Part shown: positions 2,988 through 47,006 of the stretch, in pieces
Numbering within the stretch: the stretch's first letter is position 1
Layout of the letters: every line of letters starts with the position of its first letter
Source: Austropuccinia psidii
Lineage: Eukaryota > Basidiomycota > Pucciniomycetes > Pucciniales > Sphaerophragmiaceae
Reading direction: 5' to 3'
Length of the DNA stretch: 64,000 bases
NCBI GenBank assembly: GCA_023105745.1
Contig: JALGQZ010000011.1
Span: 32,409,094 to 32,473,093, forward strand
Notes under the pieces: model-generated
The model's database searches: none
What the model saw: only the letters and a program-made list of their open reading frames with translations
Told to the model about the DNA's origin: nothing
Program-made: the position numbers and the translations under genes

Positions 2988-3029
2988 CACCAGGGTGAAT
3001 CTTGCATCAATCGTCAGCAATTGACTTCA
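2988..3029 (+). repeat. Left terminal inverted repeat
   Basis: The first 15 nt are identical to the reverse complement of 46992-47006. The next 27 nt have 7 mismatches, six of them transitions. Downstream, 3029-3170 is rich in short GTCAC/TGTCA words, like the subterminal repeats of CACTA elements that bind transposase accessory protein. Confidence 0.85.
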
Positions 3030-3299
3030 CATCGCACCACAGTCAGTATAAAATCTTGCTTCAGTCGCGTTAGTGTCACTTTATAGTCACTGGATTTAGT
3101 GGGTCATGTCATGTCAGCATCAAGACAACATCAATTGTCACATGTGTCACATGAGAATGTCACTCAAAGCCCAAACCCATTTCAACACTATTCGCAATGT
3201 TTGGGTAATTTCACCTCATTGGCTTCCGCATCCCCGCCTAATCCTCCCTGACACTTTGCATGCTTATGCGCCTGCACTGCCCTCCAGATGAGACTCCAA

Positions 3300-3900
3300 C
3301 ACTTCCCCCCCATGTCCGCCCTCACCACTCCTTACGCTTTCACACCCCCGCCGTTACCATCTTTACGCTCACATGGTGCCCTCCTGACATGCCTCCGACA
3401 CTGCTAACCATCCTTATGCTTGTTTAGTGCCCTCCTGACATGCCTCCGTCACGACATAGAACCCTCAATCCTTATGCTTGTGGAGAGCCCTCCCAACATT
3501 CCTCCAACACCGCTAACCACCCTTAAGCTGGTGTAGAGCCCTCCTGACATGCCTCTGACACCGCTTACCATCCTTATGCTTGCGGAGTGCCCTCCCGACA
3601 TGGCTCTGACACTGCTTACCATCCTTATGCTTGTGTAGTGCCCTCCCGGCATGGCTCCAACACCGCCCTCACACTGGCCTAATCCTCAAAGCCACTTATG
3701 ATCCCTCAAGATGAGACTACGATGCCGCCCCCCATCTCCGCCCTCACAACTCCTTACGCTTCCGCCCCCCACCGCTTGCAATCCTTACGCTCCCGCGGTG
3801 CCCTCAAGATATGCCTCCGTGCCACTCTCCACCCTCCTCATGCCTCCGCACCCCCGCCACTTACCATCCTCATGCTTCCGTATTACATCCATAGTGAACG
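3300..3900. repeat. 51-bp minisatellite
   Basis: A CCTTATGCTT / GCCCTCCNGACATGCCTCC unit recurs with starts near 3360, 3411, 3469, 3520, 3571 and 3622. Most spacings are exactly 51 bp and one is 58. Degenerate GC-rich copies continue to about 3900. Because 51 is a multiple of 3, frames stay open through the array; the open frames here look like consequences of the repeat, not a gene. The array starts about 300 bp from the transposon end. Confidence 0.8.
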
Positions 3901-4603
3901 GTGGCTTGTTGGCATACATGATCAACGCAATCAAGGAAATATGCTGAGTGGCCTTCTCTTCCAACAGGACGTGAATGGAAATTTGTCAGTATATTCACAA
4001 TGTTGTGGTTAGGGTTTAAATCATGAGACTCACAAATTAAAACCTAATAAGTGGAAAATTTAAGACAAGAATTTTGTCTCCTGTTTCCCCAACAAAGCCA
4101 TTTTATTTCATATGATTCAAATGGAACACTTTGCTTAGTCCTTACCTCATGAGCATTGAATAGTTCAAAAGTTGACTTTAGTAGGTTTCTCACTAGTCAA
4201 CTTTATTCAATGTCTCACAGGGAAGTGATTTCATTTGCATGATATGAAATAATTTGCAAAACATTGCCTCCTTCAATTTCCCGACAAATCATATTTTGCA
4301 AATGCAATACAATTTCAATAGAAGGTTCCAAGGCTGTTGATGCGCAGGTTTATTTTGGTCAGCTTGTGGTTCTAAAATGTTTTTTTTCTAGGATATTCAA
4401 TAACTCTTAAACTGCTTTAAATTCATATTTAACTTCTTTCAGACTTGCAGAAATTCCCCAATATTACCTAAAAAAGAATGAATTATTTTAAACTTATTTT
4501 ACTTCCACCTTTTTTCTTCAATTTTGATCTTTTTATTCAAAATTTTCAAACAAATTATCAATCTACTTCTCACCATCTCTTTGCTTAATAAACTACCTCC
4601 ACT
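3901..4603. other. Spacer without a gene
   Basis: No supportable coding frame. A loose inverted repeat lies at about 4155-4213 (CATTGAAT...AAGTTGACT against AGTCAACTT...ATTCAATG). The 3' part is T-rich and leads to the ATG of gene X. Confidence 0.4.
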
Positions 4604-4766
4604 ATGGCCCAACCCCCAGGAAATTGAACTGAATTCAATGAGCTACCAACTTCAGCACCTGAGAGTGGAAGTGAAATCTCTTATATGGCCAGTAGCTGTG
4701 AATTGGGATTTGATGTAGAGAGCCAGTCACATGAAGATAATCAATATCCACCACTTCTTCCATAAT

Positions 4767-4837
4767 GTGAGTATGCATCCATCTTGAATATTTAAAATCT
4801 CTCAAAACCTGATATTGTGTCATAGCCTTTATTTCAG
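4767..4837 (+). other. Intron in gene X
   Basis: GTGAGT donor and a pyrimidine-rich TTTATTTCAG acceptor, 71 nt, typical of basidiomycete introns. An in-frame stop lies just before the donor, consistent with decay. Confidence 0.5.
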
Positions 4838-5101
4838 CTCAACCTCCAAGCTATCAGAAACTAAATTTTGAAAGCTATGAGAAGGAAAAGACTGTTGAAC
4901 CTTGTGCACTGACAGAAGATGCTGGGAAAGATGATGTAATTTTCAGTGGGGAGGTGAAAATTATATCCAAGGAACAATTTTTCTCAAAAATTGCTCAAAC
5001 AATGCCAATGCTTGAAAAAATTCAAAATGATACTAAAATTCGGGATTATGTGCATCAAAAGATTGCTGAAGCAATGAGCCTCCTTAAAATGGATTTGAAC
5101 C

Positions 5102-5162
5102 GTAAGTCCATTACTAATTCAATACAAAAACCCCAAAATGGCTGCTTACAATATATGGGCAG
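5102..5162 (+). other. Intron in gene X
   Basis: GTAAGT donor, TTACTAAT branch site and GGGCAG acceptor, 61 nt. The coding frame is coherent on both sides. Confidence 0.6.
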
Positions 5163-5380
5163 GTGTGAAGGTGGGAGAATCTCTACCTGAAGGATCTCGA
5201 GTGGTAATTGGAATTCCAATCAAAGGATTAGGAAAAAGACCAAATATACATGCCACCAAAAAAACCAACAAAAAACACCGTACCTTTGAAGTCGCAAAAT
5301 ATTCCTGGGATCAGGATGATGAAATGATAAATGTTGAAGTGGGCCATATTTATAATCAACGTCCGCATACTGAAAGCCCC

Positions 5381-5460
5381 CCCATACTCAATGAAACAAT
5401 CCATGATGAACCTCCACATACCAAAAGCCCCCCATACTCAATGAAACAATCCATGATGAA
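5381..5460 (+). repeat. 50-bp tandem duplication inside gene X
   Basis: The 30-nt block starting CCCATACTCAATGAAACAAT recurs at 5381 and 5431. A 50-bp unit changes frame; an original 51-bp unit that lost one C would explain the frame switch. Confidence 0.7.
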
Positions 5461-6128
5461 ACCCCTCCAGCCTCTCCTCAAAATATTCAAGCCTTTCAAG
5501 AAAGGGAGAAAATTAAACCTGATACAATGGGACAAGATATGACTGATATAATTCCCAACCCTGAGCCTGCAGTGTAATTCTCTGCTAATTTTCAAGGAAT
5601 ATTCTTATCCCACATGGAAGAGTTTGGAGAAATTTTGAATTATCATTCCAATATTACTCAGCAATCATGGAAAAGGGGGCTTGATAATATCAATAGGATT
5701 GACAAAAATTGATGGGACAATTTACCAACAAAGGATGCTCATACATTCGCGCCCATTGGTCTTAAGGTGATTGGTAACTGGGAGCTTAAAATGTTGGCCT
5801 GGCTTGAGGACCTTGAGATGGCAGGTGCATTTTATCTTTGTGCATGAAATGTGATTATTGGCTGTTGACTGGTGATATAAATTGCAATATACAAGGTTAG
5901 ATTTTTTTAAGCCAACAGAAACATAAGCCTTTTTTGATAACAACATTTGGAATCTCAAATTGATGAAGGAATCAGCTAAACCTCCAGATAATCTCCCAAA
6001 ATCTGAACACTCCTTCTTCAAAATGGTTCAGAGCCTTCTTGACCCTGCCAATCCAGTTAAACATTTTTGGGCAAATTTTATGTTTGAATCCATTAGTTTT
6101 GTCTCATACAATGTGATTGCACGCAAAC

Positions 6129-7956
6129 TGTGAGCCTTAGGGGTAATTTCATATACCCAAAAGACCACAAATACAAAATTAACATATAAATATAAATAAA
6201 AGAAATTTATTTATATTATTAAAATAAAAATTAAAATATAAATATAAAATTATATTCAAAATAAAAAATTTAATTAAAATTTAAAATTAAAATTACATTA
6301 AATTTTGGAATTATAAAATTACATTTATTCTTGAAAAAATTAAGTAAAAATGAATTTTTAACAAAATTGTAAAAAAATAAATAAATTTGGAAAAAAGTTA
6401 AATAAAAATTATTATAAATTTTTATCCAATAAATAAACATATAAAAATTATTTCACCATTGGATTCCTCATAAAAAATCAGGTGGGGTCACCTTTGAGTG
6501 AAATTCTTGTAACTCAACTCTAAATAAGCTTAAATTAACTTTTTAGTATTTTCAATAAAAAAGTTGAAAATCCTCAAAACTTTAATTTAATTCACACCAC
6601 ATGTGGTTTTAACCATCAATTTTTGTGTTCAAATTGAGGTGTTGTGTTTAGTTTAGAAGTTATGAGGAATTGAAGTATTTTCAATTGAATTCAATTGAAA
6701 TGTCAAAATGTGCGCGTGTATTACATAAGTGAACTTTGATTTACATATGAGGTGTCAATTATTACTGTATTGTACTGTACAATTGAATTGAATCACATAT
6801 GTAAATTACAAGTATAATACATGATGAGGAATTAAAGGAAAAATAAATTGGAAAGATTAAATTTGGGGGGGAAAAGGAACTCCAGCTCTAAGGGGGAGCT
6901 AGACCCCCAAAATCCTTGCTGACAGGCAGTTGGATGTCCAAATTTACGCAAAAGTTCATCACTTTTGGCCTGGAATTGAGTTACAGGGTCTGTGGACTCA
7001 ATTGATGATGAGGTTTTGATACCAGCTGGGGTAGTTTTAGCTGTTGCCAAGAGGGTAAAACTACCCTTAAGATAAAACAATCATAGTAAAAACAGCTTTA
7101 ACTGGTTTCTACGCCTCCGACACACATTCTGACGTGTTTTGAAGGCTCTAGGCCAGGTATTGCTATAGTAATGGCTGATTCAAAGGTCTAAAATGGCTAA
7201 AAATGGCTTAAACCAGCCCTTTTTGGTCTAAACCAGGGTTCAATGATGCCATAATTGACTTTTCTGTTGTCAGACTGTTTTTAACGACTGACAAGAGTAA
7301 ATTTTACTTTTGGAGTAAGAGAATTGATGGTTATAAAAGAATGTCTTCTTTGCCCCACTTTTCTCTTCATGTTAGAATCTTTTCCTTTTATAGTTAGTTT
7401 AAAAATTGTTAAACCAATCAATAAAAGATTCCAACCACCTCTATTAAATCATTTTAAACCTTTTAACCACGTGAAAAAATAATTATAATCATTGTTTGTA
7501 ACTTTTATAATCATTTTTACCCCTGAACCACCCCAAAAGTGAATTAAATCATCTTTCATCACTGTAAACTTTGTCACTTTGTTTCCAAATTCACTCTGGT
7601 CACTTTTGGGCGTGTTTTCTCTTTAATATTCTTTTCAAAGACTTTTTTCCTTAATTAATTGCTTGCAGTTCCTTGCTCAATTAATTCCAATTGAAATTGC
7701 TCTTGAAGAAATTTCTTTTGTAGCCTTAAAATATCTCTTGTAGAGTATTTTTTGGATAAATTTTTATTGTTGGTAAAACAATAAATTTTTATAATATTAT
7801 TGTTTTATACTAATAAAGCTATAAACAATAAAATTGGCGTGTTTTCTCTTAAAAATAATATTTTTTACTATTTTTAATTGATTTTTACCTTATACAAATT
7901 TTGAGGACAGGAAAAGTACTTGATTTTTACTCAAAGTTTCATATCCACACCTTACA
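6129..7956. mobile_element. Solo LTR, family F1, copy 1
   Basis: Runs from TGTGAGCCTTAGGGG to CACACCTTACA, 1,828 bp. It is flanked by a perfect 5-bp duplication CAAAC (6124-6128 and 7957-7961). The matching duplication on either side of a single LTR shows a solo LTR left by recombination. Removing it and one CAAAC joins gene X in frame (GCACGCAAAC to CATATGTGG). A second copy lies at 20541-22370. Start and end words resemble the LTRs of elements A and B, so the family is Ty3-like. An 82-codon minus-strand frame (6832-7080) is open in both copies. Confidence 0.9.
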
Positions 7957-7961
7957 CAAAC

Positions 7962-8669
7962 CATATGTGGCACTAACATCAAATTCAACCAATCCTCTTG
8001 GACTTGAACGGGGAGCAGTTAAATACTTTGCCTGCTGCTTGAGTAAATCAAAGCAACATGCAACCCAGCTTAGCATTGAAGGTGGTGGGGCTGACAATGA
8101 GATATCACAAAGCCACACAAGAACCTGGAGGATCTAATGGATACAGCTATCCATTTGATGATTGCATACAACATGGCATGTGCACATACAAAGCTTGAAG
8201 TCAATGGAATCAAAGGCAAACTCACGGGCTCCAAAAAAATGAGGCCATCAAAAATCTTTTGACGTGTCACAAGAATCTCCGAATAAATCAAATTTGCTAT
8301 GGTATATTAGCGGCTTTCTGTGCAGCGGGGGTTCATGGTTTGATGTTATGCTCAGATTACTGGAGAACAAGCTCAGTTAAAGGGGCTTTATCACTCATTG
8401 ACATTTCCGAAAAATGTTCAGAGGGTAAAACTAATAAGTATATATGTAATTTACTGAATAAAAGTTTCTTCTCATCAGAGTCTTTTAACCCCACTGTACC
8501 TTATAGATTTGAATTTGCACAATGCTTGGTATTAGACTTTGGTGATGCCTGGGTGGTGAAGCGCAGTCTTGATTCAAGTGATGATGTCACATTGACTGTA
8601 CCCAGGTCAGCTAAGCTTACAACCAGGATTGACCCGTTTTGGATTAGATTTGTACTAGATAGATTGTAA
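7962..8669 (+). pseudogene. Gene X, 3' part, unknown function
   Basis: Continues gene X after the solo LTR. Trace segments are PYVALTSNSTNPLGLERGAV, then NLEDLMDTAIHLMIAYNMAC in a second frame, then CYGILAAFCAAGVHGLMLCS in a third frame, ending FWIRFVLDRL before a TAA at 8667-8669. At least two frameshifts (near 8118 and 8250) break it. The hydrophobic GILAAFCAAGVHGLML segment could be buried or membrane-associated, but this is weak. Family not recognised. Confidence 0.5.
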
Positions 8670-8770: not shown

Positions 8771-10513
8771 ATGCTTCTGTATAACATTGAAAATACTCTG
8801 ACAAGATGCAAACTGAGTCAGGCAGTTGTGCCCACTATGAGCACACACGGGGCCATTGTGGAAAGTGGGTTCTGTTACTTCCTGCCAGCCCATAATAGGC
8901 CAAATGGCCCTGTTTGTTTCAAGAGGACTAGGATAATTAGGCATCTGCAGAAGGGTGCATATTTCATTCGCGCGTGCTTGCAATATTCCACATGGTTGGA
9001 TTGGAAAGTGATTGAATGGGAACATCAATATGTAAAATTGAATAATGCACTATCCATTGAATTTTTCTGGTTCAGGTACTTTATATCCCAAATTTGCCAA
9101 GGTCGGGTGTGATCTTTCATTTGTAGCCACAATTATAAAAGATTCATTGACCAAGATCAAATTTAGGTAATATTAACAATTCAGTAATCATTTGGTTTCA
9201 TTTTATTTTCTGCTGCAAGCATTCCATTCACAATAAAAGGAAAGGAGCATAAAATAGAACTTGTGGGAAAGCGTCGTGGTGAGGAAGGAAAGTGCAAGTG
9301 GCTCGCTTATTGTCAGCGTATATATATATATATATATATATATGCTTCCACATTTGTGTGGCACCCTCATTGGGCCCCATGGAAGAACATTGGATTTAGT
9401 TGGTTCAGATTGAGCCAATGTCATGTGGGCTCCAACAGGGAATAAAAGTATGTGTGCTGAATAAAGCTCCTTGGGCATTGGGCACCATTCTGGACTCAAA
9501 AATCCTTAGCTTCAAATGGCAGGAAGCAGTATGTGATATCTTGTCTGCTTCAACACAAAGTGATCCCTCAACCACTGAGGAATAGTGGGACATCCCAAAA
9601 GACAAATGAGGCCAGAATCGCCCAAAAGAATAGGTTTTTTTCCTCCTCTTGCCCAACAGCACAAATATCAATTCCAGTATCAGCAAATATGACCTCAAGT
9701 GAAATTCGGAGGCTTGTGGATGTCAATCAGATGAAACAGATTCACTTTGGCAGCATGGCAATTTTATCTTCAACCGGATTACTCATTGCCCTTGTCAAAT
9801 TCAGACCATTCACAACAATGAGTGAAATCAAGGTCAATCAATGGGATCAATTATCACAATTCTTATTTCGCAAAAGAAGACTCACTGACCCAATTGCAAA
9901 AAATGGGGCATTACTTGAGGGATTTATGTTCGTGATTGGGTGGCACAAATGCAGCACAAAGAATGAACAATTTGGTCTGTATGGAAGTCTTGGGAAAATT
10001 GAAAATGCAAAAGATGAATGACGTAACCGAGGTGCCAATCTTAGCTCGGTGGGTTGCATTCTAGGTCAATCCTTACAATATGTTGGGGATAATTTATTTG
10101 AGAAGGTTCAAAATTGATACAAGTCATTGGGGGTTCTGTCTTTTGATCAAGTTAGCTATGAAGCCAATATTCCCACAAATCAGGGTGCATTAGAGTTTGC
10201 TTCCGCACTCACTTTCACCATGAATAGATTCAAAAACGCACCTCATGTTGAGAAGGATGCATTTCTGTATGCTTTGGGATGGTGGTTTCAAGTTGATAAG
10301 TGGACTGGCCAAATTCAAAGAGATGTGTCAAAGCAGTGTACAGGGGGAAAATTGATTTTCCCAAATGAGCATTTTTGGATTTATCTATCCGGATTTCATG
10401 GGCTCATTCAGGTAGTGTGGGCCACTAGTACATTTGTTCATTATACTGATCTAGCACAGGACAATAAAAGCACAACACTAGTGGGTATGTCCGCGCAATT
10501 CTCAGGGAGGTGA
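8771..10513 (+). pseudogene. TET/JBP-like 2OG-Fe(II) oxygenase, degraded
   Basis: The best domain is one frame from 9533 to 10513, with TGA at 10019 and another near 10118. Its order is typical of the fungal TET/JBP family: a VKFRPFTTMSEIKVNQWDQL helix region, VIGWHK, then F(K)NAPH-x-E-K-D, an aromatic LGWWFQ strand, a GGKLIFP strand, GLIQVVW and a distal TFVHYTD histidine. TET/JBP enzymes oxidise 5-methylcytosine (or thymine) using Fe(II) and 2-oxoglutarate; in fungi they are expanded and linked to DNA transposons. The metal triad reads H(10244)-x-E(10250)...H(10439). The family usually has HxD, so the acidic ligand appears to be changed. Upstream blocks (8771-9112, 9263-9317, 9430-9585) look like N-terminal exons split by introns and frameshifts. 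Non-functional as it stands. Confidence 0.68.
9319..9343. repeat. (TA)n microsatellite
   Basis: About 12 TA units within the degraded TET-like gene. Confidence 0.9.
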
Positions 10514-10789
10514 GCCAAAAAAATGTGCCAAAAAAGCCACAGCTATTATGAGGTTGGTGAGGGAGAGTGCTATCAAATCAGGGATGGTAATAAAATCTCA
10601 TCCCGATTCAAAGAATGAGGATCTTTGCATGTGTGTTGGAATTTCAGTGTGATTTGTAAATAATCGTGGGGCAAGGCAGAGGACAATGAACACCAGGATT
10701 GGATGGTTTGGAGTGCGGGAGGTGGGGTGAGATGGATTGTGTACGGTGGCATGCCATTGTACATATGTCCTTGTTTGTTGCTCTTTTCC

Positions 10790-11545
10790 AGGATCCCAAT
10801 GCTTCACATGTGAATCCTTATGCTTGTGCAGGTTTCCAATACTTCAAACAATCACTTATGCCAGGGCAGGCTTCCAATGCTTCACACAAAAATCATTATG
10901 CTTGTACATGCTCCCAACAATTCAAACAACTCCCTACACCAGTGGAGGCTCCCAACTCCTCCCACACAAATCCTTATGTTGTGCAGGTTCCCCATTATTT
11001 AAAAATTCCTTATGCCTGTGCAGGCTTCCAACAATTCACACGTGAATCCTTATGCTTGTGCATGTTCCTGACTATTTAAAAATTCCTTATGCCTGTGCAG
11101 GCTTCCAACAATTCATATGAAAATCCTGACGCTTGTGCAGCTTCCCAACAATTCAAACAGTTCCTTACTCTGGGGCAGGCTTATGAAAATTCACACGCAA
11201 ATACTTACGCTTGGCAGGTTCCCACAATGCTAAAAATTCCTTACGCCTGTGCAGGCTTCTGAAAATTGACACGCGAATCCTTACGCTTGTGCAAGTTCGC
11301 GACTGTTTAAAAATTCTTTATGCCTGTGCAAGCTTCCAATGATTCACACACAAATCCTGACGCTTGTGCAGGTTCCCGACAATTAAAACAACTCCTTACG
11401 CCGGGGAAGGCTTCTGACAATTCACATGTGAATCCTTATGCTTGGAAGGTTCTGACAATGCTACAAATTCCTTACGCCTGTGCAGGCTTCCAAAAATTCA
11501 CACACAAATCCTTACGCTTGTGAAGGTTCCCAACAATTCAAAAAA
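10790..11545. repeat. 78-bp minisatellite of two ~39-bp half units
   Basis: Alternating half units, 'AATCCTTATGCTTGTGCAGG' and 'TTCCTTACGCCTGTGCAGGC', are separated by CTTCCAACAATTCA-like spacers. Starts of the first half unit fall near 10813, 10891, 10970, 11045, 11121, 11197, 11275, 11353, 11431 and 11508, so the period is about 75-79 bp, with nearly ten copies. Overlapping open frames in all three phases follow from the repeat and are not genes. The core ATCCTTATGCTTGTG is also in the minisatellite at 3300. Confidence 0.9.
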
Positions 11546-11935
11546 TTCAATACATGACTAATATTAATAGCGTGTGACCATAGGAAAGGCAATGTCTCAT
11601 GAATCTGAAGTGGATTGCTCACATGCAGCAAACACCCGCATTTTTACAGTTAAGATCTGATATGGTTGTCAACCATATCAGAAGAAAATGTAGGAGGCCG
11701 TAATGGTGACTATTTGCGCATTTTTGGAAAAAGAGGTGCTCACAAACAAATACTGACTCAAACATTTGGTGGGGCACTTACACAAATTATTCTCACACAA
11801 TCAGAGATTTTCTCTAAGGAGGAAATAAATAATTTTTACGTGAACAAAGAATGTAATACAAATTGAACATAACAATGATTGAATACAAACAATTTATATC
11901 AAAGAAAGTATTACAAAAGATAAAAAGTGGAAAGA
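11546..11935. other. Spacer with a 25-nt perfect palindrome
   Basis: No supported gene. A short frame at 11666-11866 has no recognisable motif. The palindrome is at 11657-11681 (arms CTGATATGGTTG / CAACCATATCAG, one-base centre). Confidence 0.5.
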
Positions 11936-11938
11936 ATG

Positions 11939-13237
11939 CTATTTTTTTCTCTCTAAGTATTTGGAGACTATCCTGGTGATGTCCTCCTTTGGATAAGCCT
12001 CCAGTTCTTGGCCAAGGAGGGAGTTTAGTTCCTCCTGAAATTCCCGGTGCATCTCATTTTGATGAGTTGCATCCAGAAAAGGAATCATGTGGTGCAAGCG
12101 GCGATGCTCCAACAAGATTTGGTTGATGGCTTGAGGAATCATTAGTGTTGGTTGCAGGTTGGTGAATTCCTGGCGAGTGTCATCTTAGGAATGAGAGGAG
12201 CTTGGCACCGGGGGGGAGGAGGCGGTTGGGTTCTCAGCGCCAATGGGAGGGAGATCCAGGGAAGAAACCGGGGTAGGAGTGGAAGGTGGCCGAGTCGGGG
12301 TAGGAGAAATGGGAGGGGGGGATCCAACAGGGGTAGCGTCAATGATGATGATTGAGCGGGGAGTAGCAGGATGAGCTGGAGATGGGCAAAGGAGGGGTGA
12401 GGAAAAGTTGGGAAGAATTAAGAAAGTGAAGCTGGGACTGACCAAATGGTTCCCCCATGGATTGTTTTGGAGACACCTCTGGTTCTGGCTCACAAGTTGC
12501 AACATCCTCAGGTGGTTTGGAGGATGGACTCGGGCCAGGAATAGGTGGCTCATTGTGTTGGGAGGGTTCTACAAAAGGAGGAAGAGTCAGTTAACTTGAG
12601 TCAAAAGTGGAAATTAAATGAAATTTGGCTGCTTACTGCGGAATAAGTCCTCCAACCATTGGGTGCCATTTGGGCCAGGAGTGGGTTGCCGTGGGGTTTG
12701 CTGGCGAGGCATACATTGAACGGGTGAGTCTTGTTGGGGGGGATTGGGTGGGTTTTGTTCTGTGTGTAATGGAAAAAAGTCAGTATGATTGCGTGAACAG
12801 AACTGAATTCAGGAGAGAAAAGAAAACTTACTTTGGCATTTGAATCCCATGGGTGACAAGACATGGTGCCGATTGGCCCAAGCTCAAGTTTCCTCTCACC
12901 ATTGCCATCCTTCATCGGCCAGATAATCACTTCACTCCAGTCAAGAAGTGAAGTGACCATTGGATGGTGGACATATCAATGCTTGAGGGGACAGGGCTAA
13001 TTGTCCTGAATTGTTTCTGTTGGGCTGTTTGAGGTCCTGGGGTCCATTCCCGCTTGGGAATACTTTCATCATTGTCACCCACAGAGGAGTCCTCGCAAGG
13101 GCCTTTTGGGCGGGAACTCCTCTGGCCGCATTGTTGGAAGGGTTGGACAACAAACAAGCATTTCGTGTGTGCTTGTCGGTCATTGTTGAGGAATGAATAC
13201 AGGGGATACCCTGCTTAGTGCATAATGTGCATGACAT
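11939..13237 (-). pseudogene. Gene Z, cysteine-containing repeat ORF, degraded
   Basis: Read on the minus strand: a Cys-rich start (SCTLCTKQGIPCIHSSTMTD), then after a frameshift FVVQPFQQCGQRSSRP and ESIPKREWTPGPQTAQQ, then a Trp-rich DEGWQW segment with stops. A Pro/Ser-rich linker follows (12185-12553), and the C-terminal helix block is FLDATHQNEMHREFQEELNS (near 12060). I recall this order from highly repeated hypothetical proteins of Austropuccinia psidii. The spaced cysteines could be a zinc-cluster-like DNA-binding unit, but the second half of such a motif is scrambled here. Introns with GTAAG/TTAG-like signals appear to separate blocks. Function unknown; cargo of the DNA transposon. 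Confidence 0.5.
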
Positions 13238-22370: not shown

Positions 22371-22375
22371 GTATT

Positions 22376-30950: not shown

Positions 30951-30957
30951 GAGGGGG
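30951..30957 (+). promoter_or_regulatory. Copia polypurine tract
   Basis: GAGGGGG lies 2 nt before the 3' LTR, the usual place for plus-strand priming. Confidence 0.7.
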
Positions 30958-30959
30958 TG

Positions 30960-31266
30960 TGTTGAGGAATCAAATCAAAAGCACACCTCAGAGAGAAAAG
31001 CTAGTGCTTTGTATAAAAGAAAAGCTCTTTTGTATATTACTCCTAATATTGTAAAAAGACAAAAGAAAAGTAAAGTACTTTTCTATCGTTGCATTAGGTA
31101 TTGGGACCATGATGGAACAACGTTCCATCTACGACAACCAATCTATAAATAGACCGTTGTCTAGTAGCTTGTAAATAGATTAATTATATCATTATCATCT
31201 TGTATCTCTTATCTCTTATCATTATTTTTATCTCTTATAATTAAAAAACACATTAACATCTTAACA
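30960..31266 (+). repeat. 3' LTR of Copia element
   Basis: TGTTGAGGAATCAAATC...CATCTTAACA, 307 bp. Five of its differences from the 5' copy change CpG to TpG or CpA. Confidence 0.88.
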
Positions 31267-35380: not shown

Positions 35381-35383
35381 AAT

Positions 35384-37393
35384 CTATTGAATATCTAATT
35401 TCTCCTCTTTAATGATTTTCCTTTCATTGACTTTCTTCATTGGTTCTTGAGTATTTTCAGTTTGATCACTTTTAGGTTCCTGTGGAAGTATTTCCTTTTC
35501 ATTTTTCACCAATTGAGGCTTCTTGTATTTAGTTGGAATAATTGTTTTCTCTTCTTCTTTTTTCTCATCTTCAATATAAGCTCCAGGTATATTTGGTCTT
35601 TTGTTTAATGGTGTTTTCACTTTTGAATGTGATCTTAAAGCATCTTGATTGGTATTTTCTACTCTTGAGTTTCTTTCTTTGGTATTTCTTAATCCATAAT
35701 TATTTGAAAGTGGCTCATTGGCCGATGAAATTGTTTGTGGTTGCCAGCTTCCCCAGTTTGCAACTTTAGCTATAGCAGTTGCACTATCATCTTTCTTTAA
35801 TTGTATTATGTTCATTGGACTAGGTTTGGGTAGTGCTTCTTTAGCTTCATCTTCTTTCATTTTCTTTTTTAGTTCTTCTAGGTCTTTTGCGAAGTCTTCA
35901 ACTAACTTCTTTGGAGCTATTTTACCATCAGTTGGAAGTCTTTGCCAATTGGGAAATAAAAATCCACCTCCTTGTCTGCTGACCCATTTCTTATTTTGAT
36001 CTTCAAAGAGGTAGCTGCATCTATTCACTTAATGTCCTTACTCCAAACAATAATAGCATTTGAGATATGGTTTTGGTGTGTTTTATGCTGGTTCATAAGG
36101 AATATGCCTTTGTGAAAAGGGTGGTAAGCTATCTTTTGGGTACCTTGTTTGATTTCCCTGCTTGATTACCTGACCTGTTTTACTTTGAGGTAGTACTGCT
36201 TCTGTTAATTCCTTAATTTGCTGAATGAAATCCTTCATTTCCTTTTTTTCTTCTTGATCCTGGCTTCTGTGTTTTTTTTGTTCTTTAATTTTCTTATTAA
36301 GATCCTTCAATTTATTCAAGGCATTTTCCATTGTTTCATCTTCAAATTTAACTTTCTTTTCTTGTGCCTTATCTAAATAATTATAGTTGAGTTCATCCTG
36401 AGAAATTTTATCTTCTACTCTATCCCTTGATATGATCACAGTTTCTAGTTCTTGCTCTATATAGCTCTTCAACATCTTCATTTCTGGTACAATATATCCA
36501 CCATCCCTTGCTTGGATCATGACCTTATCTCTTCTCATCTCCTTAATTATGGAAGTCCTAATTTGTGGTGAAAGACTTGCATAGAGCTCTTCATTGTGCT
36601 CAACTTCCCTTCTAATATATCCATATTTGTACAGATAATTTGTGATCTTTTCATATTCTCCAACAAATCACTTGTATTTAGCTAACTTTCTGATTCCTCC
36701 TCCTCTTTTGGTATTATTGAAAAGCTTGTCCAAAGATTCTGGACTATATCTTCTGTCTGGCTCTACTCTTCCCCATTCTGTAGTAAGTTCTTCTTTGAGT
36801 TTTGTCCAGTTCTTCTCTTCATAACCTTGCATTGCTTCAATTTTCTCCTTAACTTCTTCAGATGCTGACATAAAAATGACTTGTCTTGCTATATCTTCTC
36901 CACTAGCTCCTTCAATTTCAGCTTCTGCTTCCACTCTTTTTATGAATTTTTCTACTTCATTACCATCAAAAACAAGATTATAATCTTTAGCTCTTATCTT
37001 AACAATAGGAGATGTTACCTTAGGAATTTACTTTTGTAATGGACTTGGATGGTTTGGTGTAGTTAAAAATACCTACTTTGGGAGACTTTGACTTCTTGGT
37101 TCTGTTACTGGAGTAGAGGTTGCTCTAGGACCAGGTGTAGGTGATATTGGTGAGTCTTCAGGCCTAACATGCCTTGGTAATGTTTGCTCACTTGGACTGG
37201 CTCCAGGTGTGTAAGATTTTTGTTCCCTTCTTTTTCCTTTCTTTTTACTTTGTGGTAATAATAAATCTGGCATTTGCTTCATAAGACTTTGGATCTGTAC
37301 TGTTTGATCTTCCTCTTCACTTTCTTCTGCATACTGTCCTTCTACAGTATCTTCAGGTAATGGTGGTAAGTCAGATGTTGATTGTTGATTCAT
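35384..37393 (-). pseudogene. Gag of the 17.1-kb element
   Basis: One minus-strand frame, broken by stops at 37073, 37028, 36668, 36083, 36038 and 36029 but by no frameshift. Order: a Pro/Ser/acidic N-terminus; a capsid-like block (YNLVFDGNEVEKFIKRVE, then IEGASGEDIARQVIFMSA and MQGYEEKNWTKLKEELTTEW near 36780-36960); a coiled, charged region (36100-36450); a CCHC knuckle at about 36020-36061 (C-Y-Y-C..GH..C, containing two of the stops); and YLFEDQNKKWVSRQGGGFLF just after it. I recall this arrangement from rust-fungus gag-like proteins (DUF4100 type). It would form the capsid. Confidence 0.8.
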
Positions 37394-37773
37394 TTCTACT
37401 TGATAAACTGATCCTTTAAATTCTTTTTTACTTCTCTTGTTTTTCCTTGCTTCTTGAATTAACTTGAAGAAAAATATCCTTAATTCTTCCTTTTCCTTCT
37501 GTTCTGTTCTTGGTTTTGCAATGAGTAAATCAATATCCTTGGGTGTTTGGTTTTCTGGTGTTCCTTCTTTTACTGGATAATAAAAATGATATGATTGATT
37601 TTAGGATTGTGATGGTGATGATGATTGGGAATGGGATTTGTTTCCACATTCCATATTGTATGAGAGTGTTTATTGTTAATTCTTGATAATGAGAATTATT
37701 TTTGTGAGCTATGTTGATTTGGGTTTCTTCTTTTATTGATGATTGACTGATTATTGAATGTTGAAGTTGAATT
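37394..37773 (-). other. Leader between primer site and gag
   Basis: The 5' untranslated leader in minus orientation. An open frame starting inside the LTR (37530-37850) lacks any motif and is probably chance. Confidence 0.5.
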
Positions 37774-37792
37774 GGCCACTGTTGAGACACCA
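37774..37792 (-). promoter_or_regulatory. Primer-binding site of the 17.1-kb element
   Basis: On the minus strand TGGTGTCTCAACAGTGGCC begins 2 nt after the LTR end. The plus strand therefore reads like a tRNA 3' terminus ending in CCA (37790-37792). I did not identify the tRNA. Confidence 0.6.
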
Positions 37793-37794
37793 GA

Positions 37795-39635
37795 TGTGGA
37801 ACTCCTTTTAGTGTGGGATTGGATAAGGAAGTCCTTGAGGGGGAAATCACAGGTAAACAGTTTTGAATTGCTGAAATAATCCTGTAACCAAGGGTGCTAA
37901 TGGTGTTTTAGCTGCCCCTCTGAATATACTAAAAAATCTCCCTACAGAGCTCACAAATCAATATTTAAGATTGTGGCTTTACAACAAGAGAAGACTTTTA
38001 GCAGTCTCTATCAAGCCTATTCAATAATCAGGTAAGTAACTTATAATTTAAAAAAATATAAAATATAGTTTTCAAATAATAATATAAGATGATTTTAAGG
38101 GTAAAACCTTAATAGTATAAGAGGTAGATTTGATATAATAGTAATGATATATATTTTAAGGGTTAAGTTCAAATTGATGTTATATATGTTATAATTCTTA
38201 ATGGTTTGAGAGGGTAATTGTTAATATAATATAATAATAAGACCTTTAATAATTTATTGGTAAGATATTGTTCAATATATAGAGGATGTTTGTTAAATAT
38301 ATAAAAGATATAATATAATATAAGGGTAAGTTTTTTTTATATATAATAATATATAGCTGTAAGGTTGGTTTTTTTTCATATGAAGAGAATAATAAGACTG
38401 TTTTTCCTTTATAATGTAAATGTTATGGGGATAAACTCAATATTATGAGTATTATTGATAGTATTATAATTATAAGACTAATAATTTAAACATAGGGTGG
38501 ATTAATACTATTAAGTAGACCTTCTGTTAACTACTATTAATTAGAAATCACTATGAGATAAACTTATAAGTCTATAATACTGTAATAAAATAACTAGATT
38601 AACCTACTAGTAAGGGATGAATAGTTATTCTCCTTCTTGATATATAACTAATTGGATTCATGGGGAAAAGAGGAAGAAATGAGGGAGAGAGGACTGTTAT
38701 TTATATTCTTTGGGCTCTCCATAGAGGCACTCAAAAACATTCTTTTGGCTGGGATAATTTCTTTATAGTGTTGAGATAGCATTTGTTTGGTTTTTTGCAC
38801 CAATTTATGTATGATTATGTAATCTGAGATGTTTTAGCTGGTGAGGAATTTTGAGATGGTGTCATTTGATCAAGATATTGCACCATATGTTTGGTATATT
38901 GCACCATTTCTGAGACTTCTTTTATATTTTAATTAAACTCTAAAGTTATTATGCACAGCCTTGAGGGAATGGAGCTGGTGAGTAATTTTGAGATGGTGCC
39001 ATTTGATTAAGATATTGCACCATATGTTTGGTTTGTTGTTTGAACTTTAGTTTGAGAATGCTGTGTATTGTGGGGATTCTGTTTGTCCTGTATGAGATTT
39101 AATTTTTCTTTATCTAACTTAATTCTGTTTTTAATTTCTACTTACTGGCTGATCAGGTGGCTGTGCTTGTATTTCCACAGATATGCTGTGTAATTTAAGG
39201 TTTTTTGATGGATTTTCCTTGCATAAATTAATTGATTTTATTCTTTCTGTCTTGTGACTGCTGATTCATACAGTTTTAATTTATTCCTTATTAAACTGTC
39301 CTCAGTTTAATAACTGCATTGCTGAGTAATCCAATGGTTGAGCAGAGCTTGGGTAACTTGAGTGTTACATTACCCCTTTCACTGGTAACTTTAACATTCT
39401 TGCTAGTTTGTCTTTTTCTTTTCCTTATTTTATTGTTACTCTTGTAATCAAATGGTCCATTCTTCCAGGATTTGATTATGGGATTGTACATTTTTATGAA
39501 TTTAAATCCATTTTATTGCTGAATTCCTCTATTATAGTTGATTAATTATTGATTTTTCTTTGTTATTTCTTCAAATTATAGTCCTATAAATGAAATTCCA
39601 CTTGAAACTGGGCCATTAAGGTATGGAATACCACA
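37795..39635 (-). repeat. 5' LTR of the 17.1-kb element
   Basis: Same length, orientation and ends as 22506-24346. The two copies differ by scattered substitutions, indicating that insertion is not very recent. Confidence 0.9.
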
Positions 39636-39966: not shown

Positions 39967-42061
39967 TTAATTTGCAACAGTGCTATAGATTCTTATTACT
40001 AAGTTATTGAAGAGAATCACCATTTGGCCTAATAACTGGCATGTCAAGTATTTTGAGGGCGATAGTCTGCATCTTAATACAGCTCTTGAGCCAATCTTGA
40101 TCAAATACCTGAAATGATAGGCCTTCCAGAATATCACCATCATCTGTTGATCATATTTCTGGCAATGTATCAATAGATTTTTCACCCTTTTTTTAATCCA
40201 TTTACAAAACTCTATGTCTCTATCCATTTTAAATACCAATTCATTAAATAGCTGGGAGCGCCAGTGTAATCCCACTTTGCGGTAAACTTGACGTCCATTT
40301 TCCAGTACCTCCTCAGTATCTGAGCATACTCAAGGCTCATTTAATTGTCATGCTAGAATGGGAAATTTAGGGGTATCACACCATCCATGATGGCGCTCAC
40401 AGGTCTGCACATAATCAAGTAGATTATCATCAGACTTTGTTCACAATGAAGAAGAGATACAGTAACTAACCCTTTGACAAATAGTTGCGAGCTTTAGATT
40501 CCCCTTCTTTTTACCAAATACTGCGTATCATTTTGAATAGACTTCCATCCTCTTTTCAAATAAGTGAAATATTGCTCCATTAAAGCTGCCACAACCCCAT
40601 AGTTATCATGATCCTTGCTCAAACAGTAATGATGATACTTGGTGCTGACAAGTGTGAGACGGAATGTACAGTAAAACACCATAGACATCAACTTGTTGAA
40701 CGGATGTTGCCATGAGCTCTCCCAGTCCCAAGTGAATTGCTTTAGTCCTAGCTTGTGGAGCTCATTTTTGCAGTAGCTTTGGAAGCCCTGAGACTGAACC
40801 TGCTTTGATTGCTGATTGAAAACATCTTCGGGGACATATCTGAGATGACCAGCCACTTGAATTGAAATTTCATTCTTTTCTGTGCTGCGTGGTGCTGGTA
40901 GTGAGGAAAAATCGTTATCTTTAAGTTTGAGTAGTAACAGGAATTGTGCATGTACTTCTGATCTCATTCCATGGACATTCTTTGGAATTTCTGCTCTCAG
41001 CCATTTCTGTTGCTCCTTCTGGCTTGCAAATTTTGCCAAATTGTGAGATTTATAAGCCTGGTTCCTTTGCTGTCTGAGCTCAGATTGTTCAAGCATACTC
41101 TGGGTAAGGCCCATTTGAGGATGGGTGAACTCACTAATTTACTGGGTGCCTTGCTCATGGGCTGTTAACTTGTCCCTCCTTGGTTCATCATTTATTTCAC
41201 TTTGAGTCAGAGACATGTTCTCATCCTCATCATCCACAATTTTCCCTCTTGATGAACTGGCATGACCTGTTCTTGGTTTGGAGGCATATGGATGATGATG
41301 TCCAGTGACCTTCTCATTATGGACCAGAGGTGAAGATGCATAAAGTTTATCACCTGCCATGCAAATCATCAGTTAACACATCAAAACATTAATAAAGACG
41401 GGTCATACTCACAATCTTCAATTGGCTCCTGAGAGCGGACTGACTTTCCTTTAGTTGCCATATCTAACCCATGAAACAAAGAGATCAAATTGTGAAAAAG
41501 TTTATACTCCAACATCAAAATGACTTACTTTGGTGAAGCGTCAATCCTGGATTTTCCTCCAACAGACCACTCCAAGTTACCTTTTCCAATGGTCTTTTTC
41601 ATCTCCCACCATCAATGTGCTTTTCATTTCCAACATGAACCTGAGATCCTGATGGAATATTGAGGGTTGGCTGTTTATTTTGTCCAAAGGGATCCTGGGC
41701 TGTGACTGGATTCCAACCAAGATTAAGGAGGAACTCACGCGGTAGTTTTGATTGAAGATTAGTGTTTGATGAGATTTGAGGTGTTCCTTCTGGCCCCTCA
41801 GACACATGAATTTGTGTATTAGTGGGATTCGGGGAATTGAAGTGACAGAAATATTTGGATTGACCAAGTGCTTGAGGTTGGAGCCTTTGGATTCCCCACA
41901 TCATTGTTAAGACCTGATACATTCATTGAGGATGCAATAGGGGTTGTGAGAGGAATGTTGGGACTCAATTGTGACTGTGTTTGAACATATTCTATGCTAG
42001 ATTCACTATCTGAGTCATGAACAGAACCTGAACAGGATTTATGTGGCTTGGGAGATGACAT
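39967..42061 (-). pseudogene. Gene W, unknown, carried by the DNA transposon
   Basis: Minus-strand coding blocks in order: SSPKPHKSCSGSVHDSDSES near 42050 (Ser/Asp-rich), then FLLNLGWNPVTAQDPFGQ near 41700, DDEDENMSLTQSEINDE near 41200, and an uninterrupted 206-codon frame (41114-40494, MGLTQSMLEQSEL, then KFASQKEQQKWLRAEIPKNV, FTWDWESSWQHPFNKLMS and MEQYFTYLKRGWKSIQND). A C-terminal block WIKKRVKNLLIHCQKYDQ lies near 40180. Frameshifts and probable introns separate them. I recall this order from repeated hypothetical proteins of Austropuccinia psidii but know no function. It is divergent from the adjacent transposase gene, as the second gene of a CACTA element often is. Confidence 0.55.
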
Positions 42062-43008
42062 AAGGTCTAAAAAAGTACAGTAATTTTTTTAACATGATAA
42101 AACAGCTCAGTATTGTGATAAAATAGAGTGGATTCAAATGTATAATAGAGAAATTTTATGAAAAGTGGGAACCAAGCCTCTTGTGAAAGTCTAATAAGAC
42201 TGTTTTTAGGAGAATTATCCCTGCCTCCTCTTGAGCTCCTCTGCTTTTGTTGAAAACCACCCTACCCGGCCTACCAGCATATAATGTGGTATTTTCTTGA
42301 TCTCAAAGGGGACCCATCATCCATAAGTAATCAGATCCAACAAGCATTTCACCCTCCCCATTGTCAAATTGTGTCAATTATCCAAACTGCCAATATATTC
42401 ATCAAAATTACACAGCATTCTACATCTGTATAAGGGTATATTAATGAAGGATTTACCCACAAAAGAGACATCACCTTTTCAAGAAAGGCAAGAAAATCCA
42501 AATCAAATTCCAACCAATTAAAAGCCCACTGCACTTAAACCAAACAATAAGACTTGAGCTCCACTTCAAACACTTATGTAATCGTGTTATATTGTTATGT
42601 CTGTAATAAGGTTTAAGCCATGTACAATGACATGCTAGTGTACATGGTTTGAATTTTAATCCCCTCAATTTAATGTTGACACATCCCTAATGGAATGTCC
42701 ATCAAGGGTCAAAACCGCAGTATCACCATGTGTAAATAAAAGAGAATATGTATGAGAATTGAGCAGCATGGAATTTTACCCAATTAAACTCCTAACCAAT
42801 TCCACCATCCAGATGAGACATGTTACACTTTATCCCCTGCAGCTAAGCCACCATTACAAATGGGATAAAATCCTCAGCTGGCTCAAATCATCTCCCCCTC
42901 CATAAATAATCACCCAATTTTTTTCCCAATGAATAAAACTCCAAAACACTTTCACATCAACCATAGATATTTATACACAAACCAACCTTACTCATTATTC
43001 CTGCAACA
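42062..43008. promoter_or_regulatory. Divergent intergenic region between gene W and transposase
   Basis: No gene. It lies between the 5' ends of gene W (-) and the transposase (+), so it probably holds both promoters. A CCATAAATAATC word near 42900 and AGATATTTATACAC near 42965 are TATA-like sites before the transposase start. Confidence 0.4.
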
Positions 43009-46000
43009 ATGACAATCCGCCACTATTCCTCAATGCGTATATGCATGTTTCAACGCTGCTCAACCCAAACAAACTCTTCCACTGAGGGTGATAGGCAGAG
43101 AGTTGCCTTCACACCTTTCCAATATAAACAGCACATTAAAAATCTCAATTCAACCATTTCACCCAAATCTCTTCCAAACATCCCTACTTCTGCAACCAGA
43201 TCTGAGTGCCCACAAATTCTATTGGATCAAATTTTCCCAGATGATTATTCACGATTGACCCAAAGCACTCTCTCCACTCCAGAGGGTCTCAATTCAACTG
43301 CACAGAAACAATGCAGTTGTAGTCAAAACCTTCCCCCAAAAGACCTTGGAATTAAAATATCTGCCATTCTATCATTAGGGTATAATATACCCTGCAGGGC
43401 TTCACACATTCTCAACCCCACCCTGAACCTGCTGATCAAGTCCAGTATCTCAAGCTCAGGTGGTTCCCCCACTCCTGCATTCCATATATCTCAAGATCTC
43501 AGTACCATATTTGAACATCTCAAATTGAAGCCAGTGATTCAAAACTATATATGTTGTCCTCAATGTTTCTTTCTTATGGCCTTAGTTAATCAGTCACAAC
43601 TGACCAAGCCCACTGTCAACTCCATAATGACCCAAATGATCCTGATCCCCATGTACACAATCATGAGGCAAATTCATCTATTCATTTGAACCCCGCATCC
43701 AAATTACAACCAACATGAAGCAAAAATTTATACCAACAAAACATTTCATTTATCAATCATTCAAAAATTGGCTTGCCAGACGTCTCCAGCGGGCTGGAAT
43801 TATGAAAATTCTGCATGAACATCAAAAATCCCAACCTCCCAAAGGTTCCCCAAAATGTGACATCTTGGATGGATTGGTCTGGAGATGATTCACTGGCACT
43901 AGAAATATTCACGACCACCCATTCATGTCCATTCTTGGTGCATTGGCCTTCTCCATTTATGTGGACTGGTTTAATGCACATGGAAAGTCAACCCAGTTGG
44001 CCAGAATTGGACCTATCATGCTCATTTGTATTAATCTCCCCCCAAGTGAAAGATTGAAGCCAGGGAATTTCTATGTTGCAGGAATCATCCCAGGTCCAAA
44101 GGAGCCAACTGCCCTTCAATTGAATTACCTATGAATGCCACTCATCAAGGAGCTCAAAGAGCTATGGAAAGGTTACCATTTTTCACCCACCTCAACAGGT
44201 TCTTCAGGATCCTTTATCCGTGTTGCCATTCTCACAGCCATTGCAGATGTGGTTGCAATGCGCAAGCTTACTGGATTTATTTCTCATTCAGGAAACCACT
44301 TTTGTAATTTTTGCCCTATTCACAAAGCTCAAATTGAAGAAATTGGTCCTCAATTTCACTACACGCACTCATACCAAAATCATCAATCAACCATTTCAAA
44401 ATGGCTTTGGGAATCCCGACAACAAAGAAAAGAAATTTCTTCTGAGTATGGAGTCCGATATTCAATTTTGGAAGACCTTCAGTATTGGGATGCAATTAGA
44501 ATGGTTAATCTTGACATAATGCATAATTTAATAATTGGAATTTTGAAGGATCATGAAGCTTTCAAATTGTGAATTTCAGAGTCCAAATAAAAAATTCCCT
44601 TCAGGTCACGCAGGAAATCCAATGACATCAGGACTTCAAACTCCATTTCCATGACCTTCAAAAGCTCTCTTGATAAAATCACATTGAGAGAGGCCTGCTC
44701 CCTGAGAAGAGATGCAGGAAAAATAATAAATAAGTCACTCCCCACTACTTCCACCCAGATAAACTACCTCCCAATGCCCACCCCTCACCCCCAACATCCA
44801 TCTAGTGGTTCTGCAGAGATTCCTTCATTTGATGCCAATTACATCCGCACTTCTGAAATACCCTCTGAATTGAATATCAGTGCACTGAGTGATCACCAGA
44901 TCAAGGGTGAGGCTCTGAAGCATCTCCGAAAAATCATATCTGATGCCATAATTCCCTTGTCATGGACAAGAGTACCCCACAAAATAGGTTCCCCCTCTCA
45001 TGGTAGTTTGAGAGCTGCTGAATGGGCTCTCTTATACAAGGTCTGAATTTCATTTTTAATTCTCAGTGAACAGATGTCATTAGATGAACACAAATCCACC
45101 AACACACAAAGAAACATGGGTCAATCAGAAGAACTTGCAAATGAACTAACCAAGAATACATTCCATTTGATTAGTCATATCAACATTGCCACAAGTTGGA
45201 CTGTTTCAACGGATGATGCAAATGCATTTTCTGAACATTAGAAAATATTCCGCCTTTGCAATCAACACCTGTTCCCAAAACAGAAAACTAAACCAAATCA
45301 TCATTTTGCCAATCATATTCCCAAACTCTTCCAATGTTGGGACCCAGCACAAGCCTCAGCCACATGGGGTTATGAGTGCTTGATTGGAGTATTTGCAAAG
45401 ATTCCAACAAATAACAAATTATGTACGTCAATTAATAAGATCAATATATTCACATTGATTAAACACATGAACTGAATAAGACTAACTTCTTGCAACTCTG
45501 AATAGATGATTTAGATAAAACCTTACTTCAACATATCAGTCGATGTTCCAACCTTTCTGTTCTCCTGAAATCCTGTTCCGTCCCATGTGAAATAAAGCAA
45601 CTTTTCAAATCACAGAAGCCTTCCCTGTTCAATCACCAAAAACATAACAAACCATCCTGCCATGACCAATAAAATTATGATTTCCTGGTTGAGTACTTAC
45701 AGAATTTTCATTCCACAAGGGAAATAGTTGAATGGATCAGCTTAGACACTACCATACAATCCACAAGTCATCCCACTTCCATTATTGTCTCACCTTGGTA
45801 TTTTCCAGTTTCAAACATTAATATTGGGAACAATGTATTTTTAACTGAATCCAAAAATGTCAGAAACAGTGTGATATGTTTTCTAAGGGGCAACTCACAA
45901 AGTTTTGGTGTTATTAATAGCATTTTTATAGTCTCTGAGCCATATTGCATGCTGAACAATATATTCCTGATCTTAAAACCTTTGAATATTGATGTGACTT

Positions 46001-46440
46001 GCTTACTAGATTGGCTGAATCTCAATAATTATAAAGCTGTTGGTTTTGATAATGGACACTTTAGTATATCTGAAGAAGAAATAGAAGGCAATTGTGTATT
46101 TTATGGTAACAAAGTTATGTCATGTGGACTGCTTGTAATGATAAAACCATTATTTCATGATACTTAGTCTAGAAAAATGCAAATCTCTCAGATTCATTAG
46201 CAATTTTGGTAGTGAAAGAACTGCGTCAAAATTTGGTGACAGAGACATGCCATTGTGACAAGCAAAGCCCATTATTTCACATTGCCACAAAGAAATGAAT
46301 ATTTTGACATTGGGTACAGTGTGGATAAGCCAATTTCAGTGATCAAATTTCCCACACACTCACCAATCACAGCATCCAAAATGTCCAACTGTGCCATCAT
46401 CAGGTTGGAAGGGGAATTGGCCCTTATGCACCCTCCCTGA
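43009..46440 (+). pseudogene. TNP2/CACTA-type transposase, degraded
   Basis: ATG at 43009 (MTIRHYSSMRICMFQR) opens a 226-codon frame ending near a zinc-binding-like CCPQCFF. A frameshift and stops follow. The catalytic core reads YVDWFNAHGKS (D codon 43964), then PGPKEPTALQLNY, a TGA at 44132, IADVVAMRKLTGFISHSGNH (D codon 44246) with CNFC, and LDIMHNLIIGIL (D codon 44513). This matches the spacing of TNP2/EnSpm transposases (DWFNP.., LP.A.R..GF.SH, D.MH). Later blocks are LRKIISDAIIPLSWTRVPH, KTKPNHHFANHI and a C-terminal CFLRGNSQSFGVINSIFI. The enzyme would cut at the CACCA ends. KDZ motifs are absent. The start at 43009 fits the family N-terminus I recall. Confidence 0.82.
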
Positions 46441-46610
46441 ACAAGCAGACGCACATGCACCTGCCCTCGCGCATGCACACACTCACGCACCCGCCGCCGC
46501 CCATGCACATGCACATGCTCAGGCACCTGCCCCCACACATGCACAAGCACACGCTCAGGCACCTGCCCCTGCGCATGCACACGCAAACGCACCCCCACAC
46601 CACACCTGCA
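46440..46610 (+). repeat. GC-rich Ala/His-coding repeat
   Basis: Repeats of GCACATGCAC/GCGCATGCACAC encode (A/H)-rich peptide such as HAHTHAPAAAHAHAHAQAPA in the frame 46391-46624. It is much more GC-rich than the surroundings, with long alternating purine-pyrimidine runs. The coding frame may be the start of another cargo ORF, but only the repeat is certain. Confidence 0.7.
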
Positions 46611-46964
46611 GTATTCTGCAGTGAGCTCTACCAGTGTCATCCGCAAAATTACAATCCCACGGAGGTGGAGTCCTTTCATGGATGACCTGGTGAGGTGAAA
46701 CCTCCCCTCTACATCAAGACTTGCTGAAGGACCTCTTTGATGTGTGCATGTGGAAACAGGCGGGTCTTGTGTAATTTTTCCCAACTTTTGGATGGTTGAG
46801 GGAGGATCCGGTGGTGAGGAATCTCAGTTGAAGGCACAGGGGAACCAATATTGGTGGATGTAACAGGATTTGGTGTAAGACCAGAGTGTGAAGTGTGCTC
46901 TATGTTTGCTTTATTTTTGCTTGATGTGAGCCTGACTTTTATCCTGCTTGACGTTTGCTTGACA
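46611..46964. other. Subterminal region of the DNA transposon, right side
   Basis: No convincing gene. A coding trace (PPTSVIRKITIP-like, ending at stops) follows the Ala/His repeat. From 46915 to 46965 the word TGCTTGA (TCAAGCA on the other strand) recurs three times, resembling subterminal repeats. Confidence 0.45.
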
Positions 46965-47006
46965 TGAACTCAATTGCCAACAATTGACACGAGATTCACC
47001 CTGGTG
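46965..47006 (-). repeat. Right terminal inverted repeat
   Basis: Ends AGATTCACCCTGGTG, the exact inverse of the left terminus. ATT follows immediately (47007-47009). Confidence 0.85.

Follow-up and report, generated by a model that had tools for sequence, protein, structure and literature searches.

Locus and Ends of the Element

We analyzed a window of 64,000 nucleotides from the rust fungus Austropuccinia psidii (GenBank assembly GCA_023105745.1, contig JALGQZ010000011.1, positions 32,409,094 to 32,473,093 of the forward strand), which holds a 44-kb element with the features listed in Table 1. We concluded with high confidence that the element is a CACTA/EnSpm-type cut-and-paste transposon, which belongs to a high-copy family, has a unit of about 20.7 kb and carries a six-gene cargo including the transposase. 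According to conserved open reading frames (ORFs), the gene order was gene 1, a TET-like gene, a Cys-rich protein gene (minus strand), an SNF2-family gene, gene 5 (minus strand) and the transposase gene. An earlier reading made from the letters of the window (the sequence-only reading) had counted five non-transposase genes without naming them, and five such regions recurred in the relatives of the element.

It was observed that CACCAGGGTGAATCT occurred at 2988-3002 and its exact inverse at 46992-47006, with ATT directly outside each. When the strings were compared by eye, the terminal arms were identical at 35 of 42 nt, and six of the seven mismatches were transitions. These results confirmed the sequence-only reading, which had described inverted ends 44 kb apart, bordered by ATT and differing mostly by transitions. 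The inverted end pair scored 26, compared with 15.5 for the runner-up when the retroelements of the window were set aside and with 18 for the best inverted pair in 20 order-1 Markov sequences. The termini of the window element and its relatives read CACC...GGTG; that is, they begin with CAC and not with CACTA.

The element had inserted in the long terminal repeat (LTR) of a Gypsy element. An empty site with one ATT, of the kind named as a check in the earlier reading, was found in a Gypsy element contained in one of the relatives (the C1 copy described below), where the window sequence up to 2987 joined that from 47007 onward, and this was seen twice. The 3-bp duplication, which that reading had taken as a hallmark, was perfect in all six copies examined (ATT in the window, TGT in C3, TTT in C8, AGA in C1, TGT in C9 and AAA in C5). 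The CAC ends, the 3-bp duplication, the tnp2 transposase and the subterminal repeats all agreed with the CACTA-type class that had been assigned.

Table 1. Features of the element and of the insertions within it (positions in the 64,000-nucleotide window).
Feature	Position	Strand	Remark
Left target site duplication ATT	2985..2987		Empty site holds a single ATT
Left terminal inverted repeat, CACCAGGGTGAATCT...	2988..3029	+	Pair score, genome matches
Left subterminal region, CGTCA-type repeats	2988..3187	+	Mostly decayed to TGTCA/CATCA in the window copy
Gene 1 region, split by solo LTR	4813..8666, approximate	+	ORF pieces 4813-5187, 5099-5539, 8199-8666
Inserted solo LTR	6129..7956		Duplication CAAAC; insert in 0/5 fetched copies
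TET/JBP-like 2OG-Fe(II) dioxygenase gene (PF20515)	9689..10510, start approximate	+	Two in-frame stops, HVE for HxD in the window copy
77-bp minisatellite, downstream of TET gene	10789..11548	+	
Cys-rich protein gene, decayed	12145..13237	-	Possibly Zn-cluster DNA-binding
Inserted solo LTR	15518..17907		Duplication TTGC; insert in 0/5 fetched copies
SNF2-family (Rad5-like) ATPase gene, first part	18297..20540	+	
Inserted solo LTR, within SNF2 gene	20541..22370		Duplication GTATT
SNF2 gene, continuation	22371..22505	+	
Inserted LTR retrotransposon	22506..39635		Duplication ATGG; LTRs 22506-24346 and 37795-39635
Copia element inside the LTR retrotransposon	26587-31266		
Gene 5	39970..42061, approximate	-	
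Transposase gene, tnp2/Plavaka-like	42967..46164	+	Stops in the window copy
Right subterminal region, CGTCA-type repeats	46807..47006	-	Repeats inward
Right terminal inverted repeat	46965..47006	-	Inverted match to left arm, genome matches
Right target site duplication ATT	47007..47009		Bordering the right end

A High-Copy Family in the Genome

The genome searched comprised 1,015,390,075 bases in 84 contigs, and 31-nt left-end and right-end patterns were used in place of the 42-nt terminus. The left-end pattern gave 1,275 matches genome-wide and the right-end pattern 1,599, compared with 0 for the reversed-pattern controls. Pairing was examined for 76 left ends, all within the first 77.6 Mb of contig C1, the reach of the right ends listed, and 24 further listed left ends (rest of C1, C2) were dropped. 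Within 80 kb, 55 of the 76 left ends faced a right end (37 of these at 20-23 kb), a count in which one right end may serve two left ends, compared with 4 of 76 in the wrong-side control. Facing end pairs about 21 kb apart, within the 15-25 kb named in the earlier reading, were thereby found on contig C1.

Five copies (C3, C8, C1, C9 and C5), picked as the best matches to the left end, were fetched. Leaving aside the inserts of the window, all five followed it in the same order, with local gaps only; C5, for instance, had no match to window positions 8405-9317. The span of the element was 20.7-21.2 kb in C3, C8 and C9, 21.8 kb in C5 and 31.1 kb in C1, the last two with additional inserts. The results indicated that the transposon family is present in hundreds of copies. 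A second family copy in the opposite orientation was also seen beyond the C1 copy, the right ends of the two being about 2.9 kb apart.

To these we added ten further contig C1 elements, which were selected by an end spacing of 20.4-21.2 kb alone and fetched at the expected TET and SNF2 positions. TET matched at the expected offset in all ten, as did SNF2; in two of these elements (L047, L048) the match ran past the fetched stretch, and in another (L042) SNF2 was in pieces. Thus all 16 copies looked at (the window, the five and the ten), a small sample of the family, had both genes inside the element at the same offset. Linkage of TET, SNF2 and transposase by locus tags in A. psidii MF-1 gave only one pair, SNF2 and transposase, on equal-size contigs (2,923 bases), which is compatible with chance on contigs too short for such a comparison.

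The TET and SNF2 Genes and the Subterminal Repeats

The TET ORF of a relative matched PF20515 with an E value of 2e-24. A protein search with the TET fragment (E <= 0.001) gave 339 matches, of which the best 120 were all from A. psidii MF-1, with identities of at most 85%. Among the 120 proteins scanned, HxD was present in 70 of the 74 with the local motif, and the distal His in 53 of the 60 with that motif. HxD was also present in C3, C8, C9, C5 and C1 (in C1, in the ORF at 4819-5265). TET enzymes oxidize 5-methylcytosine (PMC12730594, in the part available), and we inferred that the TET product is a putative 5-methylcytosine-oxidizing dioxygenase.

The SNF2 ORF of a relative matched PF00176 with an E value of 2.8e-31, and the window gave both PF00176 and PF00271 (helicase C). 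The Walker A motif GLGKT was retained in the window and in four of the five fetched copies, with GLGKN in C1. By sequence, the closest solved chain for an A. psidii SNF2 protein of this transposon family was Rad5. Among the best 120 matches of the SNF2 protein search, 38 were from A. psidii and the rest had identities of at most 40%. As a separate observation, related SNF2 proteins occurred in several copies in Puccinia species, with about 24-30% identity.

The motif CGTCA was picked after inspection of the ends. In each of the five other copies, the first 200 bp held 5-7 occurrences and the last 200 bp held 2-4; all occurrences pointed inward and 0 were reversed. In the element body, its frequency was 0.06-0.08 per 200 bp. 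The window copy retained one CGTCA per side.

Selection, Decay and a Proposed Anti-Silencing Role

Substitutions in the two SNF2 segments SNFa and SNFb were counted by codon position in 15-16 copies. Those shared by at least two copies fell 21/17/40 on the first, second and third positions, and the private ones 64/73/70. For the shared substitutions, the chi-square value against equal thirds was about 11.6 with 2 degrees of freedom, in one of several such looks. Selection on the source copies would be expected to leave an excess at third positions, and the pattern indicated that SNF2 was probably under selection in the source lineage.

Changes in the window copy were biased toward CpG: 30 of 90 CpG bases fixed in the five other copies had become TpG or CpA, whereas 406 of the 6,966 other fixed bases had changed. 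This bias points to methylation-driven decay. The TET gene of the window copy has two in-frame stops and HVE in place of the HxD of the other five, and two insertions interrupt its SNF2 gene. In the reading frame taken from another copy, the first part of the window transposase held six stops. Judged by these changes, we regard the window copy as a dead, CpG-decayed fossil.

The transposable elements of A. psidii are described as hypermethylated, the younger families more so, with CpG depletion by deamination (PMC12774611, in the part available). In the mechanism we propose, the transposase would cut at the CACC ends, and the inward CGTCA repeats would be recognized by a DNA-binding helper, for which the Cys-rich protein is a candidate, much as TNPA recognizes its own repeats in En/Spm. 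The CpG within CGTCA would make the ends sensitive to host CpG methylation and deamination. SNF2 would open silenced chromatin, and TET would oxidize 5-methylcytosine in the opened chromatin, so that ends and promoters would stay usable. That a single transposon carries both TET and SNF2 suggests that the two share the work as the corresponding parts of JBP2 of trypanosomatids do. As the likeliest function we put forward, tentatively and at less than even confidence, a two-gene anti-silencing machine that would be a split counterpart of JBP2, in which SNF2 may open methylated chromatin and TET may clear methylation from the CpG-containing CGTCA sites that the DNA-binding protein would have to read.

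Several observations count against this proposal. A sequence search of solved structures found no relative of the TET protein, so the case for the putative TET catalysis is made by Pfam and by two short motifs. The shared TET substitutions (29/26/34 by codon position; private 40/50/47) gave no clear signal. When only six copies were considered, the first SNF2 part had shared substitutions of 9/10/10, with no third-position excess, nor did such an excess appear when substitutions between all pairs of the six copies were counted for the first part of SNF2 and that of the transposase. The Cys-rich protein of a relative matched the Zn cluster PF00172 with an E value of 0.044, below the cut-off.

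TET and SNF2 might instead be passengers, that is, captured host genes without a role in the life of the element, a reading we consider unlikely. CACTA elements pick up genes; the codon-position pattern of TET is nearly flat, and stops occur in the TET or SNF2 genes of several copies. Mere passengers fit poorly with the presence of both genes in every one of the 16 copies, with the preference of shared SNF2 substitutions for third positions and with the retention of HxD and GLGKT in most copies. In addition, rust TET genes occur in seven transposon lineages, which suggests repeated selection (PMC12730594, in the part available).

If the anti-silencing proposal is true, it would have let a 21-kb CACTA become one of the dominant DNA transposons of a gigabase, CpG-methylating rust genome. 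CACTA elements rank second in abundance among the transposon groups of the A. psidii genome (PMC12774611, in the part available), which the present family may help explain. The family offers a clean case, with complete ends, hundreds of comparable copies, TET plus a chromatin remodeler, and CpG-containing candidate target sites. Whether a transposon protects its own ends from methylation is a question that long-read methylation data could answer.

Class of the Element and Other Readings

The transposase gene lies near the right end, where the sequence-only reading had placed a TNP2-type transposase. The ORF of a relative matched tnp2 (PF02992) with an E value of 3.3e-15 and Plavaka (PF18759) with 2.9e-6, both over the curated cut-offs and Plavaka just over. 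The decayed window fragment gave 2.4e-5 for Plavaka and 6e-4 for tnp2, both under the curated Pfam cut-offs. In CACTA/EnSpm transposases, C(2)C and H(3-4)H are expected between the second D and the E of the DDE triad; the strings CNFC and MHN, which occurred in the transposase frame, are at most candidates for these motifs. A protein search with the transposase (E <= 0.001) gave 217 matches, of which the best 120 were all from A. psidii, with identities of at most 87% over the covered part and 80% for the top-scoring match.

Two features speak against a CACTA/EnSpm assignment: the termini are CACC rather than CACTA, and the similarity of the transposase is divided between tnp2 and Plavaka. The match to PF18759 would allow the element to be a Plavaka transposon, which we judged improbable, since the tnp2 match was stronger, the ends are CACC...GGTG with 3-bp duplications, whereas those of Plavaka are TGT..ACA or CATCA..TGATG, and Kojima classed similar rust elements as EnSpm (both in the available part of PMC12730594). 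The duplications of 3 bp also differ from the 7-8 bp of the KDZ (Kyakuja, Dileera, Zisupton) class, and the 598-aa transposase ORF, for which Pfam matches up to E 1 were considered, gave no KDZ family.

A separate DNA transposon carrying TET or SNF2 and nested in the CACTA element is very improbable. Rust transposons of other kinds, for example PHISTA with its TA duplications, are known to hold TET genes (PMC12730594, in the part available), but all 16 copies carry both genes at one offset. A nested DNA transposon around either gene was considered and rejected, because outside the retroelements of the window no further inverted pair rose above chance. A chance match of unrelated repeats 44 kb apart, which might be thought of in a genome with about 89% repeats (PMC12774611, in the part available), was refuted by the score control, the 37 end pairs at 20-23 kb, the six perfect duplications and the empty site, and it can practically be dismissed.

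Insertions, Original Size and Neighboring Features

The sequence-only reading had recognized four top-level insertions and an element of about 21 kb without them. All four inserts had perfect duplications, and removal of the inserts together with one copy of each duplication left 20,823 bp, compared with 44 kb with them; copies without the nested insertions were found among those fetched. Its description of this size as far larger than typical was overstated, as CACTA-type elements of 16-20 kb in a red alga (cited in PMC6431247) and 20.5 kb in soybean (Tgmt*, PMC2613891) are known from the available parts of these sources.

The 1.83-kb stretches at 6129-7956 and 20541-22370 were direct copies, 96% alike. 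They are separate solo LTRs, because each has its own duplication; a single LTR element at 6129-22370 enclosing TET and SNF2 was rejected on the ground that each LTR copy has its own 5-bp duplication. The Kimura two-parameter divergence (K2P) between paired LTRs was 0.031 for the retrotransposon at 22506-39635 and 0.030 for the copia element within it. A 185-bp AT-rich stretch of the window copy (4309-4493), with no clear duplication, was skipped in at least four fetched copies with a readable junction.

Pfam searches with gene 1 (two ORFs of one relative) and gene 5 gave no family above the cut-off. The Cys-rich ORF at 12-13.2 kb was considered as a retroelement fragment, and this was rejected, because it lay at the same place in the relatives. 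The minisatellites at 3376-3666 and 10789-11548 shared TTAYGCYTGTG, which occurred 11 times on the plus strand of the window and 0 times on the minus strand. Around the element, the Gypsy LTR corresponded to 1574-2987 and 47007-47759, and the sequence that follows, from 48.6 to 63.2 kb, held Gypsy-type coding pieces, among which related stretches recurred.

Comparison with Known Systems

Fungal transposons with TET genes were reportedly first described by Iyer et al. in 2014. Kojima (2025) described EnSpm elements with TET in rusts, with related EnSpm families in A. psidii. According to the available part of that paper (PMC12730594), these elements resemble the present one in their CAC..GTG ends, 3-bp duplication, Plavaka-like EnSpm transposase and internal TET gene; those named come from P. 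striiformis, and the role of TET for its carrier transposon in fungi stands there without experimental validation. SNF2 is absent from the main text of this paper, and its Table S1, outside the comparison, may already list an A. psidii family with TET. A literature search of titles and abstract beginnings, with few subscription papers covered, found no transposon with both TET and SNF2.

Among large elements, the 20.5-kb soybean CACTA Tgmt* is alike in length, 3-bp duplication, tnp2 transposase and subterminal repeats. It differs in being a plant element with a single large gene for the transposase and the binding protein, and TET and SNF2 are not named in the available part of PMC2613891. In the red alga Chondrus crispus, enlarged EnSpm families likewise have lengths of 16-20 kb and 4-5 ORFs (as cited in the available part of PMC6431247), a comparison made by size and ORF number.

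JBP2 of trypanosomatids likewise pairs a TET/JBP dioxygenase with a SWI2/SNF2 ATPase, which gives access to condensed chromatin (PMC10057400, in the part available). JBP2 is a single fused host protein acting on thymine, whereas the Austropuccinia element carries two separate genes in a transposon. In En/Spm, the element-encoded protein TNPA binds repeats near the ends, and methylation there is suggested to hinder binding (PMC2613891, in the part available); the repeat of the Austropuccinia element is CGTCA, and its binder is only a candidate. In the VANDAL transposons of Arabidopsis, the transposon protein VANC counters silencing of its own family (available parts of PMC10398659 and PMC12730594). 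VANC is a sequence-specific anti-silencing protein, and the available part of PMC10398659 does not mention TET or SNF2. Collectively, rust EnSpm elements with TET and CACTA elements of 20 kb were already known, and what appears to be new, as far as found, is the SNF2 partner of TET together with the CpG-containing CGTCA repeats at the ends.

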